This document shows, one piece after another, positions 3,350-53,741 of a stretch of DNA of 64,000 nucleotides; position 1 is the first letter of the stretch; each line of letters begins with the position of its first letter. Where the stretch lies: the NCBI GenBank assembly GCA_015272515.1, contig JACYLN010000107.1, forward strand, positions 1 to 64,000. The letters run 5' to 3'. Origin of the DNA: Leptolyngbyaceae cyanobacterium C42_A2020_001 (GTDB lineage: Bacteria > Cyanobacteriota > Cyanobacteriia > Leptolyngbyales > Leptolyngbyaceae). Position numbers and translations under genes: made by a program. Under the pieces are notes generated by a model. It made no database searches. It was not told the origin of the DNA and worked only from the letters and a program-made list of their open reading frames with translations.

Positions 3350-5995
3350 TCATGCCATTGAGATCGGATCAATATCCACCAGCAAACTCACCGTACTAGG
3401 ACAGAGCGATCGCAGGTGCTCCACCTTGAAAAGATTGGTATCCCCTACAACTGGAAGCTTCAGCAACAACTGCCAGCGATAGCGGTTGGCAATTCGTAAC
3501 ACAGGCGCAGGGGCAGGACCGAGCCGTTCCACCTCGGCAGACAACTGAGCTGCTAAAGCGTCGGCAACTCGCTCTGCCGCAGTTTGCACCGCAACCGGAT
3601 TTGGACTAGCGAACCGCAGCAGAATCAGCCGGCCATAGGGTGGATAGCGCAATGCCTGCCGTTGGTGCAGTTCCCTCGCCGCAAAGGCAGCATAGTCCTG
3701 CCGCTGTACCGCCTGAATCACCGGGTCATCAGGAGAATAGGTTTGTAGAATCACTCGCCCGGCGCGATCGCCCCGTCCACACCGTCCTGCTACTTGGGTC
3801 AGAGTTTGAAACGTGCGTTCACTGGCGCTGTAATCTGAAAAGTGCAGTAAGCCATCCGCCGCCACAATGCCTACCAGCGTTACCTGCGGCAAATCAATTC
3901 CCTTCGTCAACATTTGAGTACCCACTAGCAAATCAGCTTCACCGTGAGCAAAGCGAGTTAGCAGCGCTCGGTGCGCCCCCTTCGTGCGAGTGGTATCACT
4001 GTCAAACCGGATGATGCGAAGACTGGGAAAGAGCGCAGCTAATTCCTGCACCACTCGCTGGGTGCCACTACCAAAGTGCTTGAAATAAGAGGATTCACAA
4101 CTCGGACAGGCTTGCGGCTGGAGTTGGATATGGTTGCAGTAATGGCAGCGCAACGTCGGCATTGCCCCCTCGTGGGGCTGATGATAAGTCAACGACACAT
4201 CACAATGGGGACAGGTAACCACATAACCGCAACTGCGGCAGGAAACAAACGTGCTGTGCCCCCGCCGATTCATAAACAAAATGCCCTGCTGCCCTTCATC
4301 TTGCAACGATCGCAACGCTTGTTGCAGAGCACGGCTAAACATCGAGCGATTGCCGCAATGCAGTTCCTGCCGCATATCCACTACTTCGATCGCTGGTAAC
4401 GGTTGGGCATGTACTCGCGTCGGCAGAGAGAGATAGAGCACAGGGGGGTGGGAGGGTGGGGAAGAGGGGGATGATGGGGAAAGAGGTAGAGATTGAGGAT
4501 TGCAGATTGCAGATTGAGACGTTAGAGCAGGTTGCAGGTTGCAGGTTGCAGGTTGCATTTCTTCGTCACCGTCCCCAGTTCCCTCACCGCCCACCGCCTG
4601 CCTCCTACCTGCTGCTGCCTGACTCCTGATCCAGGTTTCTAAGGATGGAGTCGCCGAGCCCAACACCAACGGGCAATTGTCCAATCTGGCTCGCCATCGT
4701 GCCACCGTCCGAGCGTGGTAGCAAGGCGCAGGCTGCTCTTGCTTCAAGCTACTGTCGTGCTCCTCATCCAGGATGATCAGCCCCAGGTGAGGAAGGGGCG
4801 CAAAAATTGCCGAGCGGGTACCAATCACCACCTGAGCTTCGCCCCGTAGCATCTGCCGCCAGGTATCATAACGCTCCCCTTCTGACAGGGCACTATGATA
4901 CACCTGCACCCGATCGCCAAATCGTGCCCGGAAGCGATCCGTCAGTTGAGGCGTTAGCCCAATCTCCGGCACCAGCACCAGGGTAGACTGCCCCTGCTCC
5001 AGCATTGGAGCGATCGCTTGCAGGTAAACCTCCGTTTTGCCCGACCCCGTCACTCCATGCAGCAGGACTTCCCGAAAGCCTGTAAGGCTTTGAATGGCTG
5101 CTAACGCGGTTGTTTGGGCGGCGGTTAACCGTTTCGCAGCATCGGCTTGAATCGTGCCGGAGTGCCCAGTTCGCAACACCTCCTGCGATCGCATCACCAG
5201 GTAACCTTTCTGGGCTAGCGTTTTGAGAGTTCCCGTACTAGTTTGACACTGCTGCAACAACTCTGCCAGCCAGGCTTCGCCCCCTTGCCGCCGCAATACT
5301 GCAACAATTTCTTGTTGGCGCAGACTAAGCTCAGTATTCACAGGTGGCGTAGCGGTCAGCGTCACAGCTTGCCGCTGTTTAGGACGCACAGGCGATGGGG
5401 GTTCCAGGTAATGTTCTACCCATCCCGCCTGGATCAATTCGTGTAGCCCACGGCTTGCTCCCGCTACCTGGCGTTGCAGATATTGCCAACTATAGTCTCC
5501 AGTTTTACTGGCACGCAGAACGGCGAGTACCTGTTGTGCTGCGGTTGACAGAGCAGCGGCAGACATTGACTCCTGCGATGACGGCAGCAACCGCACCCGA
5601 CGTTGAGATCGTGCCAGTAAACCGGGGGGAAGCGCCACCCGCACAACCTGCATTAGCGGAGTGCAGTAGTAATCGGCCACCTGATTGAGCAATTGCCAAT
5701 AAGTGCGTGGAAAGAATCCGGTTTGAATCACCGCCTCAACCGAACGGATCTGAGCGGCATCTAACTCCCCGGTGAGCTGATCGGTGCAACGAATGGCGAT
5801 CGCCCCCACCTGCTGCGCGCCAAACGGCACACTCAAAATATCGCCAGGCTGCACTACCATTCCCGGCGGCAAGCGATAGGTGAACGCGCCCTGAGCACCC
5901 GGACAATCGACCAGCGCTTCTACCCAGCTTGGTGCAGCATCCGTTATCGCCAGGGCAGGTGAATCAGAAGCACCAGACTCAAGAAACATCGACAA
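3350..5995 (-). CDS. priA: Primosomal replication restart helicase PriA
   Basis: PriA reloads the replicative helicase at stalled forks. The 881-residue product shows the N-terminal DNA-binding region, Walker A GVTGSGKT (about 314-321), a DEEH box (about 411-414), the GSATPSLE motif (about 446-453), the paired-cysteine zinc-binding region (VSCRSCG, CPHCD, CHYC, CPSC, about 585-635) and the C-terminal helicase motifs (VGTQMLTKGID, QVAGRCGRG). It is longer than most bacterial PriA proteins (about 730-830). Part of the excess is a low-complexity stretch at residues ~458-519 that has no counterpart in the family and is made of intergenic-type repeats, described separately. The upstream neighbour on the same strand is aroK, with a ~140-base gap. 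Confidence 0.95.
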   Translation of the reverse strand: MSMFLESGASDSPALAITDAAPSWVEALVDCPGAQGAFTYRLPPGMVVQPGDILSVPFGAQQVGAIAIRCTDQLTGELDAAQIRSVEAVIQTGFFPRTYWQLLNQVADYYCTPLMQVVRVALPPGLLARSQRRVRLLPSSQESMSAAALSTAAQQVLAVLRASKTGDYSWQYLQRQVAGASRGLHELIQAGWVEHYLEPPSPVRPKQRQAVTLTATPPVNTELSLRQQEIVAVLRRQGGEAWLAELLQQCQTSTGTLKTLAQKGYLVMRSQEVLRTGHSGTIQADAAKRLTAAQTTALAAIQSLTGFREVLLHGVTGSGKTEVYLQAIAPMLEQGQSTLVLVPEIGLTPQLTDRFRARFGDRVQVYHSALSEGERYDTWRQMLRGEAQVVIGTRSAIFAPLPHLGLIILDEEHDSSLKQEQPAPCYHARTVARWRARLDNCPLVLGSATPSLETWIRSQAAAGRRQAVGGEGTGDGDEEMQPATCNLQPALTSQSAICNPQSLPLSPSSPSSPPSHPPVLYLSLPTRVHAQPLPAIEVVDMRQELHCGNRSMFSRALQQALRSLQDEGQQGILFMNRRGHSTFVSCRSCGYVVTCPHCDVSLTYHQPHEGAMPTLRCHYCNHIQLQPQACPSCESSYFKHFGSGTQRVVQELAALFPSLRIIRFDSDTTRTKGAHRALLTRFAHGEADLLVGTQMLTKGIDLPQVTLVGIVAADGLLHFSDYSASERTFQTLTQVAGRCGRGDRAGRVILQTYSPDDPVIQAVQRQDYAAFAARELHQRQALRYPPYGRLILLRFASPNPVAVQTAAERVADALAAQLSAEVERLGPAPAPVLRIANRYRWQLLLKLPVVGDTNLFKVEHLRSLCPSTVSLLVDIDPISMA
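4439..4624. repeat. Heptamer-rich filler inserted in frame in priA
   Basis: Within priA, between the GSATPSLE helicase motif and the conserved LSLPTRVHAQPLP segment, about 186 bases consist of simple repeats: four tandem CAGGTTG heptamers (4528-4555), GATTGCA heptamers (4498-4517) and G-rich GGGGATGATGGGG tracts. A 21-base piece (4461-4481) is identical to 8904-8924 in an intergenic region. The encoded residues are Pro/Ser/Gln/Asn-rich. The frame stays open. Boundaries are estimated from where family conservation stops and resumes. Confidence 0.8.
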
Positions 5996-7972: not shown

Positions 7973-8791
7973 CTATGGAGTGGGGCGATCGCGGGGGTCA
8001 TCCCCAAACTCATCGGAAGTGTCTTCAAACCAATCATCGGCATTCTCCTCCAGCGGGGGCGGTGGTGGAGGGGGCGAAGGAATCGGTTCATCCAGCGAAC
8101 GGTAGGGCGGCACAATCACGCGATAGTCCGCATCCACGACTTTTTCCTGCTTACCCACCCCTGAATCTTCCGGTTCGCGATAGTTGTAGGAATAGGTAGA
8201 ACCCGATTGCGAAGCCTGGTTGGGAGGCGATTTTGCTTCAAAATTCTTAAGGTCCTCTGGCGCAACGCGATCGCGCGGACTTGATGCTGCCCGATTAGCA
8301 TTTGGAGGTTTACTATCCTCCCAATCGTCGCTGAGTGGGCGTTCCCAATCATCCAACGGTTCCTTTGAGGTTGTTTGACGGCTACCCGCATTTGAAGGGG
8401 TTCTGCGTTCAGCCGCTTCGTACCCGCGCCAATCCTTCCAGGCGGCATCATCATCAGTCTCATTCCGGGTACTACGAGTCGTGGAGCGCGCGGCATCCGC
8501 CGGGGCAGAGGTTCCCGCCGACCAGCGGTTGGCAAAGCCAGTGCCCTGTGGATTGCGTACCCGCGATCGCACGGTTTGCCCAGCAACAAAATTCGACAGC
8601 CCAAACAACACCTGAATTGCCAGCGTCGTTAACCCACCCGCCGCGATCGCGCCCAAGACCCACCAGGAAAGCGGCAATGCCGGAAACCGGATGCCCAGAA
8701 AAACCAGCGGTATGAGCGGAGTCAAGTTTTGCAACGTGAACACCATCAACCCACCCGCGATCGCTAACAGCAGCACAAGACGAAACAACAT
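7973..8791 (-). CDS. LapA-domain-like membrane protein with long acidic tail
   Basis: Two hydrophobic helices at residues ~1-24 and ~40-65 in a LapA/DUF1049-like arrangement (LFRLVLLLAIAGGLMVFTLQN, then WWVLGAIAAGG) are followed by ~200 hydrophilic residues. The tail is rich in Asp, Ser, Arg and Pro, including a run of eight prolines near residue 245 and an acidic end (DDWFEDTSDEFGDD). The tail is probably disordered and cytoplasmic. Proteins with this head and a variable tail are common in cyanobacteria and uncharacterised. It faces the preceding gene convergently and is separated from ubiX upstream by simple-sequence filler. Confidence 0.75.
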   Translation of the reverse strand: MLFRLVLLLAIAGGLMVFTLQNLTPLIPLVFLGIRFPALPLSWWVLGAIAAGGLTTLAIQVLFGLSNFVAGQTVRSRVRNPQGTGFANRWSAGTSAPADAARSTTRSTRNETDDDAAWKDWRGYEAAERRTPSNAGSRQTTSKEPLDDWERPLSDDWEDSKPPNANRAASSPRDRVAPEDLKNFEAKSPPNQASQSGSTYSYNYREPEDSGVGKQEKVVDADYRVIVPPYRSLDEPIPSPPPPPPPLEENADDWFEDTSDEFGDDPRDRPTP

Positions 8792-8829
8792 AGCAATAGC
8801 GCAATCAGTCGCCAGATTCCAGCTTATCT

Positions 8830-9060
8830 CAGAATTTGAGAGTGGAGAGAGAAGAAGATTTGGAGAAGACAGAGGGGAAAGGGGTAATAGGGGAGATGGG
8901 GAAGAAGAGGGGGATGATGGGGAAGGGAGGAGAAGTATAAGGGTAGATGGGTGGATGGGTGGAATTTCATTTACTCACCTCCCTCACCCACCTCCTCCGA
9001 CTCCTAACCTGCAATCTATCAATCTAAAATCTTCCCTCCGCCTTCTGCCCCCCTTCCCAT
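8830..9060. repeat. Simple-sequence intergenic filler reaching into the end of ubiX
   Basis: G-rich GGGGAAG/GGGGATGATGGGG tracts are followed by C-rich CCTCCCTCACCCACCTCC and CTGCAATCTATCAATC pieces. A 21-base segment (8904-8924) also occurs inside priA. The last ~12 codons of ubiX (RWEGGQKAEGRF) are read from this material. Confidence 0.7.
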
Positions 9061-9698
9061 CGCTGCAACGGGACACAATCAATTCCAAGCTGATCCAGCG
9101 TTCTGGCGACAACAAAATCAACTAAATCTTCAATAGATTGGGGAGTGTGATACCAAGCAGGAATCGCCGGCACGATGCGGGCACCCGCTTCTGCCAGCGT
9201 CGTTAAGTTACGTAGATGAATCAAACTGAATGGAGTTTCCCGCGGCACCAACACTAATTTCCGACCTTCTTTGAGTTGCACATCAGCGGCGCGTTCTAGC
9301 AAATCGGAACTCAACCCGGTTGCCAATTTGCCCACGGTGCTCATGCTGCACGGAATTACTACCATGCCTAACGTGCGAAACGAGCCACTGGCAATAGTTG
9401 CTCCCACATCACGCCAGGGATGGCACACCAACTTGCCGCTATTTTCAACGCCTGCCTGTTGTCGCCAAAATTGCTCCTGCTGTACCGAGTCGGCTGGCAT
9501 CCGGATCCCCAGTTCCGACTGCCAGACCATGTAAACCGCTTTGGAAGCAACTAGCTCGATCGCGTAATCTGCTGCCAACAAAAACTTCAATGCCCGAACT
9601 GCATAGATTAAGCCAGAGGCACCTGTCACGCCCAGAATTAAGGGATAGGAAGGACGAGAATCCGAGGAATAGGAATCAGAAACTGAGGACACAACCAA
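9024..9698 (-). CDS. ubiX: Flavin prenyltransferase UbiX
   Basis: It attaches a dimethylallyl group to FMN to make the prenyl-FMN cofactor of UbiD decarboxylases, in quinone synthesis. The family hallmarks GVTGASGLIYAVR (residues ~24-36), the SGSF loop, IPCSMSTVGKLATG and the LVPRETPFS segment are clear. The length of 224 residues includes an extra Ser-rich N-terminus and a C-terminal tail read from repeat filler. A methionine at position 1 is the only good start. The RNase gene lies 80 bases downstream on the + side, transcribed into ubiX's upstream region on the same strand. Confidence 0.93.
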   Translation of the reverse strand: MVVSSVSDSYSSDSRPSYPLILGVTGASGLIYAVRALKFLLAADYAIELVASKAVYMVWQSELGIRMPADSVQQEQFWRQQAGVENSGKLVCHPWRDVGATIASGSFRTLGMVVIPCSMSTVGKLATGLSSDLLERAADVQLKEGRKLVLVPRETPFSLIHLRNLTTLAEAGARIVPAIPAWYHTPQSIEDLVDFVVARTLDQLGIDCVPLQRWEGGQKAEGRF

Positions 9699-14413: not shown

Positions 14414-14881
14414 TCAGATTTGAGTGAAGGCATCGATGATGTAGTCGCTGAGTGTTAGCCGATAACCAGCGGCGATCGCAGTCATTTCTCCATCCACATT
14501 CGCTAAATCCACAGCCCCTGCCAATTTCTCGCAATTCACTAACGCTACATCAAAGCGGCAGGGAAGTTGCTCACAGGTAGGGTGTTCCATTAGAAACAAT
14601 TGAGCCGTTTTCCAGAGCTTTGCCTGTTTTTGCGCTGTAATTGCTAATTTGCCGTCTTCATCCCAATTGTTGCCACGCCGAGTTTTAACTTCCACAAACG
14701 CGATCGCTACCAGGTCGGCTGACTCAGAATCGAGTTGCCCAATGACCAAATCCAATTCACCCCAGCGACAGTGCCAGCGCCGCTCTAACACCTGCCATCC
14801 CTGACGTTGAAGCCAGCGCGCAACTAGCGCCTCACCAAGTAAGCCAGGGTCAGAATTGGGTGATTTAGTAGGATGAGGCAT
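14414..14881 (-). CDS. YraN family (UPF0102) endonuclease-like protein
   Basis: The fold is that of Holliday-junction-resolvase-type nucleases: the GELDLVI motif and the AFVEVKTRR motif supply the expected acidic and lysine residues. The N-terminus LLGEALVARWLQRQGW matches the family. I start at 14881 (MPHPTKSPNSDPG); an upstream in-frame start at 14986 would add ~35 residues read entirely from simple-sequence filler. The 155-residue product has a family-typical length with a slightly longer middle. The role of the family is not established. Confidence 0.85.
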   Translation of the reverse strand: MPHPTKSPNSDPGLLGEALVARWLQRQGWQVLERRWHCRWGELDLVIGQLDSESADLVAIAFVEVKTRRGNNWDEDGKLAITAQKQAKLWKTAQLFLMEHPTCEQLPCRFDVALVNCEKLAGAVDLANVDGEMTAIAAGYRLTLSDYIIDAFTQI

Positions 14882-15050
14882 GGGGAGGAGGGTAGATGGG
14901 TGGGTGGGTAGGTGAGGTAGCGATTGGAGATTGAGGAGTTGAAAAATTTTGAATTTCTCCCCTACCTTCCCCATCTCCCTCACCACTTCTGACTCTAACC
15001 CTACACCCCATACTCCATACCCGATGCCTCTTCCCTCTCCCCTTTACTTT
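14882..15050. repeat. Simple-sequence filler upstream of yraN
   Basis: It contains GGGTAGATGGGTGGGTGGG, GATTGGAGATTGAGGAG, TTTTGAATTTCTCCCCTA and CCTTCCCCATCTCCCTC pieces. The segment around AATTTTGAATTTCTCCCCTA recurs near 54233-54253. Confidence 0.7.
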
Positions 15051-15849: not shown

Positions 15850-17761
15850 CCAACAACGGCACTCGCACCAAATCTTCAAAAATCACCTGCCGTTCGCGCT
15901 CCAAATCTCGAATGCGTTGATCTTCGGCGTAGATCTTTTTCTGATACATCTGCCCCAGGTCGGGAGCAATCTCCCAATCAAGGCTTTGCAGCAGATCCAA
16001 CAAGTGTCGCCGCCGCTTTTCACACATGACTTTTTCCATTGCAGCCACGGCTGTACGGATTACTAATAGCGCGCGCTGGGTGTTGACCTGACGGGTTTCA
16101 TCTAATTGAAACAGGGCATAAACACGCGACGACTCCGTGGAAATTTCAAGCTCTGATTCCTCCAGCAGACTTAATAAATCTACAGAAGCATCGGTCAGGT
16201 CAATACCCTGTTCTCTCAAATGCAGGATTTGTCGCCAGAGAAGGCGATGGTGGGAGAGGCTAAATTCCAAATCCCGCTCTTCCAGCGATGATTCAATCAG
16301 GGCGCGATGCTGAGGTTTATGAATGTAAAGCCGCAGTAGTTGTTCTTCGGATTCTTCTAACAAAGTGCGATCGCTGCGAGTTTGCCATTTCTGCGATCGT
16401 CCATGCCAACGTTCGCCCCGCACTTGCAGGCGCAAATCTTCTTCCAGTTGCAGCATCAGGCGAGAATCTCCCTGGCTGAGCCGCTCCGCACAACGATGAA
16501 TGTAGTGAGTCCGCAGGGTGGCATTCGGCAAATTCCCCAGCAATTTCACAACGGCCTGCACCATTGCCTGAAACTGGTCTGCCTGTTTGGGGTCGCGCCC
16601 GGCGATCGCTCGTTCAATCTGCCAATCTAGCCAGAGCGGGGCTGTCTCAATCAGCACCTGATACTCCTCGGCTAAATGGTTCTTTAAAAACTCATCTGGG
16701 TCTTTACCATCGGGAATGTTGAGCACCCGTAGTTGAATATCTCCCCGGTATGCCAGCATTTCCACTTCGCCAACTGCCCGCTCTGCCGCTTGATTTCCAG
16801 CGTTATCGGCATCAAAGTTGAGCACAATTCGTTTGGATTCGGTGTAGCGCAATAATTGCCGCACCTGAGCCGAACTCAACGCCGTCCCCATGGAAGCCAC
16901 CACATTGGTGATGCCAGCATTATGCAGAGCAATCACATCAAAGTAGCCCTCTACCACCACGGCTTGATCTTGTTTGGCGATCGCGGCCCGGGCTTTATCC
17001 AGGGCAAACAACAGCTTGCCCTTATCAAACAGTTCAGTTTCCGGCGAATTCAAGTATTTGGGCTGTTCATCCGTCAGGGTGCGTCCACCAAAACCCACCA
17101 CGCGCCCCTGCAAGTCATGGATGGGGATCATCAGGCGATCGCGAAAGCGGTCATAAAACCCCCCACCCGTCTTGCGCGGCACCAATAACCCCGCCTTCTC
17201 CACCAGTTCCACCGGGTAGTGCTTCTGCCCCACCAGATAGCCGTACAGCGTCTCCCATCCCGCAGGCGCATAGCCCAACTGAAACTGCTGCATCGTTTCC
17301 CGATTCAGGTGTCGCTGTGTCTGTAAATACGCCAGCGCCGCCTGCCCCGCTGGCTGATACAACGCATGTTCATAAAACTTCGCCGCCACCGCAAGAATCT
17401 CATAAAGCTGATCTCGTAACGAAACTTGACGCTGAAACTCCTGCCGCTCCTCCGGCTTCAACGTCTGCACCGACACCTGATAGCGTCGTGCCAGATCCAG
17501 CACCACCTCGCTAAACGGGCGTTTACCCAGTTCCATCAAAAACTTAATTGCGTTCCCCCCTGCGCCACAGCTAAAGCAGTAGTAGAACTGCTTCCCTGGA
17601 CTCACCGTAAAACTGGGCGACTTGTCATCATGAAACGGGCATAACCCCACAAAATCCTTCCCCTGCTTCCGCAACACCACATGTTCTGACACCACATCCA
17701 CGATGTCCGTTCGTTGCTTGACTTGTTCAATGGTTTCCGGGTGGAGGCGGGGGATGTCCAT
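15842..17761 (-). CDS. dnaG: DNA primase DnaG
   Basis: It makes RNA primers at the replication fork. The CHC2 zinc finger (Cys41, His44, Cys62, Cys65), the RNA-polymerase-type core, the Toprim domain (VVEGYFDVIALHNAG and FDADNAG, about 265-325) and a C-terminal helicase-binding region are present in order. 639 residues is a usual length. The start at 17761 (MDIPRLHPETIEQVKQ) is the family start. The stop codon lies in a 38-bp repeat shared with the convergent pentapeptide gene, so the last residues could be recently altered. Confidence 0.96.
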   Translation of the reverse strand: MDIPRLHPETIEQVKQRTDIVDVVSEHVVLRKQGKDFVGLCPFHDDKSPSFTVSPGKQFYYCFSCGAGGNAIKFLMELGKRPFSEVVLDLARRYQVSVQTLKPEERQEFQRQVSLRDQLYEILAVAAKFYEHALYQPAGQAALAYLQTQRHLNRETMQQFQLGYAPAGWETLYGYLVGQKHYPVELVEKAGLLVPRKTGGGFYDRFRDRLMIPIHDLQGRVVGFGGRTLTDEQPKYLNSPETELFDKGKLLFALDKARAAIAKQDQAVVVEGYFDVIALHNAGITNVVASMGTALSSAQVRQLLRYTESKRIVLNFDADNAGNQAAERAVGEVEMLAYRGDIQLRVLNIPDGKDPDEFLKNHLAEEYQVLIETAPLWLDWQIERAIAGRDPKQADQFQAMVQAVVKLLGNLPNATLRTHYIHRCAERLSQGDSRLMLQLEEDLRLQVRGERWHGRSQKWQTRSDRTLLEESEEQLLRLYIHKPQHRALIESSLEERDLEFSLSHHRLLWRQILHLREQGIDLTDASVDLLSLLEESELEISTESSRVYALFQLDETRQVNTQRALLVIRTAVAAMEKVMCEKRRRHLLDLLQSLDWEIAPDLGQMYQKKIYAEDQRIRDLERERQVIFEDLVRVPLLEI

Positions 17762-18060
17762 GGGGGCGGTAGGGGGTGAGGGGGAATTAGGGAAAGAACG
17801 GATGGAAATCGGAGGCGATCGCAGCTCTATGGTATTTTTGAGCGATTTGGATACTGATTGTAGCGAACGAATCCCCCATCCACCGTTGTTCTTCTCAAAC
17901 TCTTCTGAATAGGCAGGTTTTCCAAGGTTCCGTTGTCACAGCCTTTCCTCACCCCCTTCACCCCCTTTCCTTCCCCTCTCCCCTTCACCCCCTCACCCCC
18001 TCACCCCTCTCCCCATTCCCAACTTTTTGCTCCGATTCCCCGTTCTTGAGCTACAACTGG
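17762..18060. repeat. Intergenic region largely of C-rich filler
   Basis: It lies between the divergent dnaG and amidase-like genes. From about 17945 to 18020 the + strand is built from CACCCCCTTCACCCC and CCCCTCTCCCC units, like the other filler stretches in this window. The left half (17762-17930) should hold the dnaG promoter; I cannot assign it. Confidence 0.7.
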
Positions 18061-18098
18061 CTCTGTAAAGTCCTGTTCTGGGATAAGGGGCTTTGGGC

Positions 18099-51937: not shown

Positions 51938-53407
51938 ACCTGGAAAGTTGGGGTCTAGGCGCTGGGTAAAAGTTTGGATGTAGGCCATGTCTTGAGCCGA
52001 TGTATTGGGGAGCTTTTTCAACCAGGCGATCGCGGCTGTTGGAGTTTGTTGTGCGGTCATCAGCAAAGCTCCCCAAATTTTTACTTCCATCTTGTTAGGA
52101 TTCACTCGTAAAGATGCTTTGATGCGATTTTCTAAGCGTCCTCTATCAGTCTTTAACAGCTCGATCGCTTCTTGACTGGCTTCAGCGGAAGATTTAAATA
52201 CTGTCAACGCTCGTTCCCAACGCCCATCAATCATGTTGGCGAGAATTTGCTGACCGGGACTTGCCCAAGAACCCTCTGCTTGATTTTGGGTAGTCTGCGC
52301 GTGCCACCGAATCAAGTCCATCTGGGCTTGCACAGTAGGTGACCAATGGTTCGGCGATCGCTGCTTCAAAGATTGCAGCCACAGCAAACTGGTAGACCAC
52401 AATCGGCTACGAGCAAGCAATAAAGCACTATCGTACTGCGAGTCATTAAGGGCAGGTTCTGCGATTGAAATTGGTTCTAGCTGAACTGGGCTATGAATGA
52501 AGTTGTGAGACTTAACCTGATAAATTTCAAACTGAGGTTCCATGCCAATGGTTTGATTCACAATCAACTCCGGCGTGTCTGCGCCAGTCACCTCCTTCCA
52601 AATCGGCTCTTCTCCAGTAGGGCTAGTCCATTGCAACTTGGCACTAAGGTGCTGAGTATGAGGATGGTAGTAAAGAATCTGTCCATAGGCGATCGCTTCA
52701 TCACCCCGAGTGCGAGTGCCGCTGAGATTTAACCAAATACCCCGTTTGGGAACGGTTCCTTCATAACGGCTGAGTTGAGTCAGTGGTAAAGCGCGACTTG
52801 AACCTTGATTCTCCGAATTCGCTTCAACGAGGGGGGCGATCGCAAATGATTCTTCTAGTCCAGGAGTTGCCAGTTGACTCACCAGGTAATATCTCTCCTT
52901 TGTAGTCAGCGATCGTCCTGGATTGGTTGCCGTCTGATACACCCGTAGCTCCACAATGCGATCGCAGTTCGTTAAGCAGTTCGGGGCTGGTTGTATCACT
53001 GGCAGCAGCCAATCAGCAGTAGGAGTCCTTCCATCCAGAAAACTGAGGTTTTTACCCAGCGCCAAAAATTCTCCAGATAACTTGCCCTGTTGACGAAGTT
53101 CCGCTCGAATTTCCTGCAACGATTTAGCCAATTGATGGTTCTCTTTGGCAACGTTCCACCCCGGAACCCACTGATTCACCCAGCGAACCGACTGCGGATT
53201 AATAATGAGCTGGCTACCTACCCAACCCAATCCCACAACGCCCCCTGCTGCACATCCCATCAGCGCGATCGCCCACACTAAATTCCAGTGCGATCCACGA
53301 ACTCGGCTTGTCGCGGGCGAGGCAACTCGGCTAATTGGTCCGGGTCTTGCAGTGACGGCTGGCAGTTTAGGGCGTTTAGGCAACGGTTTGGGAGGAATGC
53401 TTCCCAT
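51881..53407 (-). CDS. Conserved cyanobacterial protein with one membrane anchor
   Basis: 508 residues. A basic Pro-rich N-terminus (KPLPKRPKLP) precedes a single membrane helix (WAIALMGCAAGGVVGLGWVG, about 45-67); the remainder is soluble and probably periplasmic or lumenal. A helical C-terminal part (about 345-495) looks like a TPR-type solenoid. I do not recognise a family. Convergent 57-base overlap with the zinc-ribbon gene. Confidence 0.75.
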   Translation of the reverse strand: MGSIPPKPLPKRPKLPAVTARPGPISRVASPATSRVRGSHWNLVWAIALMGCAAGGVVGLGWVGSQLIINPQSVRWVNQWVPGWNVAKENHQLAKSLQEIRAELRQQGKLSGEFLALGKNLSFLDGRTPTADWLLPVIQPAPNCLTNCDRIVELRVYQTATNPGRSLTTKERYYLVSQLATPGLEESFAIAPLVEANSENQGSSRALPLTQLSRYEGTVPKRGIWLNLSGTRTRGDEAIAYGQILYYHPHTQHLSAKLQWTSPTGEEPIWKEVTGADTPELIVNQTIGMEPQFEIYQVKSHNFIHSPVQLEPISIAEPALNDSQYDSALLLARSRLWSTSLLWLQSLKQRSPNHWSPTVQAQMDLIRWHAQTTQNQAEGSWASPGQQILANMIDGRWERALTVFKSSAEASQEAIELLKTDRGRLENRIKASLRVNPNKMEVKIWGALLMTAQQTPTAAIAWLKKLPNTSAQDMAYIQTFTQRLDPNFPGLPSAQQHLEPNFKRHINR

Positions 53408-53741
53408 GCAATATCAAACAGTGACGATGTGAATGCGCCCTACTGTACCTGCAATTAGCGCGAATAACACAAGAATCACAAAATGTTAGATTTTGGCGCA
53501 GGGGCGCAGGGAAACGGGGAGAGGGGATAAAATTTACAGCCGTTTTTCGTCAGCCGCAGTACAAGCATCTTGCTTATGTTAGTGAGTAGGACGCTCGTAG
53601 GATAGTGGCTTACTCAAACAGAAGCCGCTGTAAGATTGAGGCTGGGGCATTAGCCATACAAGTTTTTTGCTTTTACTTCAGTAGGGCTGTTGCCCGATAC
53701 CCGATACCCCATACTTATCCTCATACCCTATTCCCCCTCTT
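53408..53741. repeat. Intergenic region, partly filler
   Basis: GGGAAACGGGGAGAGGGGAT (near 53510) and CCCGATACCCGATACCCCAT/CATACCCTATTCCCCC (53693-53735) are of the same simple type as the other filler. No gene seen. It includes the start region of the next gene. Confidence 0.6.

Follow-up and report, generated by a model that had tools for sequence, protein, structure and literature searches.

Filler of intergenic type in a predicted disordered loop of cyanobacterial PriA

The replication restart helicase PriA encoded in the window (the whole stretch of 64,000 nucleotides analysed here, from Leptolyngbyaceae cyanobacterium C42_A2020_001) carries in its helicase core an insert that we read as the genome's own intergenic low-complexity filler, of the heptamer or STRR type, placed in frame in a disordered loop. 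We give this reading a probability of about 0.8. The filler inside priA matches filler elsewhere in the same genome, filler recurs at the same site in related proteins, its frame is open, the loop is predicted to be disordered, the filler has a polarity and it turns over fast. The best reading of the wider pattern is that dispersed STRR-type filler recurrently enters a few tolerant loops and is presumably translated there, and we infer that the PriA loop is both translated and functionally neutral.

The insert in the helicase core

In the window, priA is an uninterrupted open reading frame (ORF) of 881 codons on the minus strand (positions 3350-5995). Its product scores 1073.9 bits against the PriA equivalog profile NF004066 (cut-off 813), its domains follow the PriA order (3'BD, DEAD, Zn ribbon, helicase C, PriA_C), with helicase domains flanking the insert on both sides, and solved PriA structures are its best structural relatives in a Foldseek search. 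To this intact 881-residue protein the insert adds 58-66 residues. The TIGR00595 profile runs unbroken across the site, from model position 151 to 154, and the window gene adds 58 codons to it (4436-4609). Among solved PriA chains the best match is 8fak_H, in which 14 residues take the place of the 71 found in the window protein.

An earlier note on this DNA, made from the sequence alone, had proposed that heptamer filler lies in frame inside priA, and the filler is real: the gene remains open through the insert, and the period-7 autocorrelation over 4439-4624 is 0.54, compared with at most 0.35 among 200 dinucleotide-preserving shuffles. The repeat is present within those bounds, which the note had given for the insert, but alignments place the variable linker, delimited by the conserved W455 and the motif LSLPTR, slightly wider, at residues 456-521 (4433-4630, 198 nt, minus strand). 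Read on the plus strand, the filler that makes up this linker comprises a G-rich purine arm (4443-4489), a heptamer core of AGATTGC and AGGTTGC units, detected by TRF as a period-7 block (4490-4557), and a C-rich pyrimidine arm (4558-4627); on the minus strand these encode PLSPSSPSSPPSHPP, QPATCNLQPALTSQSAICNPQ and RSQAAAGRRQAVGGEGTGDGDEE, respectively. An AlphaFold2 model calculated from a 55-sequence alignment (mean pLDDT 82.2, pTM 0.81) predicts a coil for the insert, and pLDDT is less than 50 at residues 473-475 and 477-513. The loop joins the helix after motif III (residues 452-468) to the next β-strand (519-524), and in the model it is of a disordered, surface type, in line with the surface loop that had been suggested.

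The insert is built from the filler vocabulary of its own genome, as BLAST searches and k-mer counts both bear out. Used as a query against the window genome, it gives hits at 39 further places at E≤1, with a lowest E value of 4.6e-11, and at E≤1e-5 it finds nine other places in its own genome versus none or one in each of eight relatives. The matches are piecemeal, the filler being a patchwork of short units. A 21-base identity reported earlier is exact, the sequence GAAGAGGGGGATGATGGGGAA occurring at both 4461-4481 and 8904-8924; in control searches no match longer than 16 bases turned up for 200 shuffled inserts, and a match of at least 21 was obtained for just 1 of 200 random pieces of the window. 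A 19-mer is found at nine places in the window genome with no more than one mismatch. The second copy of the 21 bases lies in filler with the same architecture as the insert, G-rich and then C-rich on the plus strand (8860-9060), most of which falls in the spacer at 8791-9023. The same vocabulary had been listed at other sites, of which those at 18.0, 25.2 and 54.2 kb lie between ORFs and that at 14.9 kb lies in the over-extended start of an ORF. The longest ORF of this YraN-like gene (14414-14986, minus strand) begins inside filler, at about 14.9 kb, upstream of a likely true start at MPHPTKSPNSD.

In other genomes, too, an insert resembles the intergenic filler of the genome that carries it. 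In seven genomes sampled at about 200 kb, the 12-mers of an insert recur as often as 4.1 times each, compared with 0.02-0.12 for the neighbouring priA coding sequence, and the own genome ranks top in five of the seven, the exceptions being G015 and G029, for which another genome's sample matches the insert better. The own-genome signal is strong in G005 and G007; enrichment is modest in the 195-kb sample of the window genome (0.13 versus 0.05 per k-mer). For the G005 insert, 850 first-look candidates were found in its own genome versus 28-86 in G000 and G002 and 18 in G013, all such genome-wide counts referring to samples of about 190-400 kb per genome.

Recurrence at one site of PriA

Linkers are found at exactly the same place in PriA proteins of the same family, and 80 named loci extend the site to Nostoc, Calothrix, Okeania, Symploca, Planktothrix and others. 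Over 89 PriAs the linker varies from 6 residues (LERSTY) to 132, is as short as 6-8 residues in many lineages, and is by far the most variable site of the helicase core; a second, smaller variable site is the inter-domain linker near residue 140. On a tree of 91 sequences from which the linker was left out, the long and short states imply at least 23 changes, counted irrespective of direction. PriA cores that are 93-97% identical can carry unrelated linkers, for example VSVGGMREQGEMGEMREQYPPHPPHPPHPPHPPHPSHY and VSVKRQEAEARNYY. In Okeania sp. SIO2F4 (L051) the linker consists of four near-identical 30-residue units (KPDLSEKIDSLNEGENQPSFLVDKNASLTG), which is tandem expansion of another kind at this site.

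The insert had been thought a recent expansion peculiar to this lineage. That framing needs to be widened, because the same loop varies in about 90 cyanobacterial PriAs, with different filler across the family and the phylum, and these same-site linkers in relatives rule out a lineage-specific origin for the insert as a whole. What appears specific to the lineage is the heptamer core alone: the 81-nt linker of the nearest relative in the genus (G002, in an alignment with L017) lacks this core, implying that 4490-4557 is probably the young part of the insert. Alignment of the relatives' PriA thus reveals a shared site with non-conserved sequence, and not the one insertion, conserved everywhere, that the earlier note had set against its own proposal.

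No in-frame stop codon occurs in the 54 linkers of at least 20 residues (6810 nt), compared with 96 ± 9 in shuffled sequences; the alternative frames contain 92-102 on the sense strand and 85-142 when all five are considered. Since the linkers were gathered by demanding an open frame between the anchors, this absence is partly conditional. In the single exception, Chlorogloeopsis fritschii PCC 6912 (L088, around 3813-4009), the anchors are in different frames, pointing to a frameshift within the linker filler that is either real or an error of the draft.

Filler in other genes and its polarity

Is this behaviour confined to PriA? Filler within ORFs was sought by BLAST of ORFs against the spacers of their own genome and with a detector of G and C blocks; a k-mer screen was too insensitive, missing priA itself. 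By the ORF-against-spacer comparison, internal filler is present in 5 of 7 priA genes versus 18 of 950 other ORFs (Fisher p about 1e-7). The hosts named by NCBIfam are RecJ, an ECF-type sigma factor, homogentisate phytyltransferase, an ABC-transporter ATPase, IleRS, RlmN, DnaX, Mfd and a glycolate-oxidase-like protein, to which the block detector adds CobB, ThiL and an ArsA-family ATPase. Several hosts again have filler at a single site. In RecJ relatives it lies between PTILL and ARGSARS, and the RecJ insert (residues 432-481) is likewise predicted to be disordered (AlphaFold2 pLDDT below 50). In RlmN it lies between VGIPT and RLTVCVSS in five genes, most RlmN genes having two residues there, and in Mfd it directly precedes AIVTTERALQPHLPPVSA in two genomes (L162, residues about 107-172; L185, residues about 110-153). 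Filler may also extend the ends of genes. In the window, the filler at 8860-9060 reaches the 3' end of a UbiX-like ORF (9024-9698, minus strand), whose C-terminal tail, GGQKAEGRF, reads as though it were filler-encoded.

Linker length in PriA covaries with that in RecJ (rho 0.73, n=20) and in RlmN (rho 0.54), both being raw correlations that ignore kinship, and the covariation with RecJ points to a genome-wide cause. Genome size is not the driver (rho 0.08). PriA and RecJ linkers from one genome also share more 9-mers than permuted pairs (p=0.004).

The filler has a marked polarity. The first half of the PriA linkers is purine-rich (purine fraction 0.66) and the second half pyrimidine-rich (0.40), and GC skew falls between the halves in 47 of 54 linkers (p about 1e-8). 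The order is again G to C in 14 of 14 RecJ and 5 of 5 RlmN inserts. Among spacers that combine a strict G block with a strict C block, the G block comes first in 30 of 30, in all four orientations of the flanking genes; these are the window spacers 8791-9023, 17761-18092 and 53407-53741, together with 27 in fetched loci. Filler inside genes thus keeps the architecture of intergenic filler. Coding pieces identified at lax thresholds have an order near 50:50. Avoidance of stop codons should not set the order, since purine and pyrimidine tracts are both stop-poor. PMC4692102 implies the same polarity for heptamers of Nostoc and Xanthomonas: past a stop codon the sense strand is the G-rich one, and ahead of a start it is the antisense strand.

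Origin and significance of the filler

How, then, does filler come to lie in these loops? Selection for a PriA-specific functional linker, such as a regulatory or partner-binding disordered segment whose low complexity is incidental, would fit the constancy of the site and the recurrence of a first half that is charged and rich in G, E and R and a second half rich in P and S. Such a linker is nevertheless unlikely when the loop shrinks to a few residues in many lineages, its sequence is swapped between closely similar PriAs, its polarity and vocabulary are shared by spacers, RecJ and RlmN, and its length covaries with that of RecJ. Ordinary low-complexity drift in a disordered linker, unrelated to the intergenic repeats, is less likely again. 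Disordered linkers often gain repeats, low-complexity DNA matches other low-complexity DNA, and the k-mer excess in the window genome sample is small; but the highly significant own-genome matches missing in relatives, the exact 21-mer, the strong signals in G005 and G007 and a polarity common to spacers all speak against it.

Insertion of a mobile element of the MITE, REPIN or RPE type, autonomous or not, is comparably improbable, even though the filler is dispersed, 11 of 36 linkers are hairpin-like (z below -2), Y1-type transposase matches occur in the window genome and palindromic elements insert in frame in Rickettsia (PMC10969869). A non-exhaustive comparison showed neither a fixed consensus nor a constant length nor defined ends. 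The window linker does not fold more stably than shuffled sequences (z -0.42), which eliminates a simple hairpin element, and its filler is assembled from short units. The earlier description of the insert as mobile-like is not borne out, no element with fixed ends having been found. Nothing connects the Y1_Tnp matches, one divergent and four IS200-like, to the filler; the IS200-like copies (G000 C129, C17, C134 and C140) have equal scores, and each contains an internal TGA. That the insert is an assembly artefact, as the earlier note had allowed, or a non-translated interruption (pseudogene, intron or intein) is scarcely credible. Repeats do break assemblies: a contig of the Leptolyngbyaceae RU_5_1 MAG (L035, L039) loses its PriA match just upstream of the linker filler, probably through a mis-join or break at the repeat, and the draft L088 has the frameshift described above. 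In the window, however, no stop interrupts the ORF, the full set of helicase domains flanks the insert, and in-frame linkers at the same site in many independent assemblies, single-contig genomes included, exclude an assembly artefact. A Pfam scan of the whole window PriA found only PriA and helicase domains, with no Hint/intein or intron family, and 58-66 residues are far too few for an intein.

The preferred reading, own-genome filler in a tolerant loop, places the insert close to known repeats. STRR heptamers of filamentous cyanobacteria occur in promoters and spacers (PMC2670836), and STRR sequence is also recorded inside the RNase P RNA gene, rnpB, of heterocystous species (Vioque 1997, as cited in PMC2858038). 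The insert resembles STRRs in its tandem 7-base units, its dispersed own-genome families and its occurrence in filamentous cyanobacteria, and also, as far as the cited account goes, in having entered a functional gene at a dispensable part. It differs in lying inside priA, although related copies are mostly between genes, and more generally in its in-frame position in protein-coding housekeeping genes, its recurrence in one loop, and its mixture of G-rich, heptamer and C-rich segments. The G-rich heptamers GGGGA(C/T)T and GGGAATC of Nostoc and Xanthomonas are, according to the passages available from PMC4692102, 68% intergenic in Nostoc with a remarkably high intragenic share. They resemble the filler in being mainly intergenic and in having a G-rich strand where an ORF is left and a C-rich strand where one is approached; those passages deal with counts and G-quadruplex formation and do not include recurrent in-frame insertion into a loop. 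The RPEs (Ogata 2000 and 2002, as relayed in PMC10969869) are described there as about 150 bp long, with a family consensus and a conserved encoded peptide. Like the filler they are dispersed repeats found in frame in unrelated housekeeping genes whose proteins tolerate them. In contrast, the filler differs from genome to genome, has no fixed consensus, palindrome or conserved peptide, and gives linkers that range over 6-132 residues and are unalignable; it thus works like RPEs without being one. Small dispersed repeats and REPINs form a further class of very small dispersed repeats in cyanobacteria, for example in Nostoc punctiforme (PMC3116915), REPINs having REP ends and a RAYT transposase, neither of which was found attached to the filler. 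No description of recurrent in-frame filler in PriA of cyanobacteria came to light in the open-access literature searched, and priority is uncertain. Elhai reportedly treated small dispersed repeats in 2008.

We envisage that filler turns over continually, as copies pass between dispersed genomic sites and are reshaped, and that it spreads by slippage or template switching rather than through a transposase. Copies that land in genes would survive only when they keep the frame, introduce no stop and lie in a loop able to tolerate a long disordered segment. If the PriA helicase core has one such loop, then it is this loop, after motif III, that would have gained, lost and regained filler many times in cyanobacteria, and likewise single loops in RecJ, RlmN and probably Mfd. 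A more speculative origin, which we consider doubtful, is that filler is a telomere-like scar of end extension, in which both 3' ends of a break were extended with G-rich, often heptameric repeats and then rejoined. The idea arises because every strand that leaves unique DNA and enters filler is G-rich. With no reverse transcriptase (RVT_1) in the window genome, synthesis of filler by such an enzyme is set aside, as is Ku-dependent joining, Ku being found neither there nor in 10 relatives (11 genomes); any end-extending enzyme would thus be of another kind. Were this origin correct, the insertions in the PriA, RecJ, RlmN and Mfd loops would be healed chromosome breaks.

We conclude that what seemed a single odd insertion belongs to a general, testable pattern in filamentous cyanobacteria that takes in PriA, RecJ, RlmN, Mfd and others. 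Any model for the origin of filler has to account for the strict G-to-C polarity. In practical terms, filler loops disturb annotation, alignments and assemblies, and they mark permissive sites for tags. The repeated entry of filler into the same loops amounts to a set of natural, replicated insertion experiments, in which a route from non-coding repeat to disordered protein segment becomes visible in bacteria, and filler in enzyme loops would be a continuing natural source of new disordered segments.
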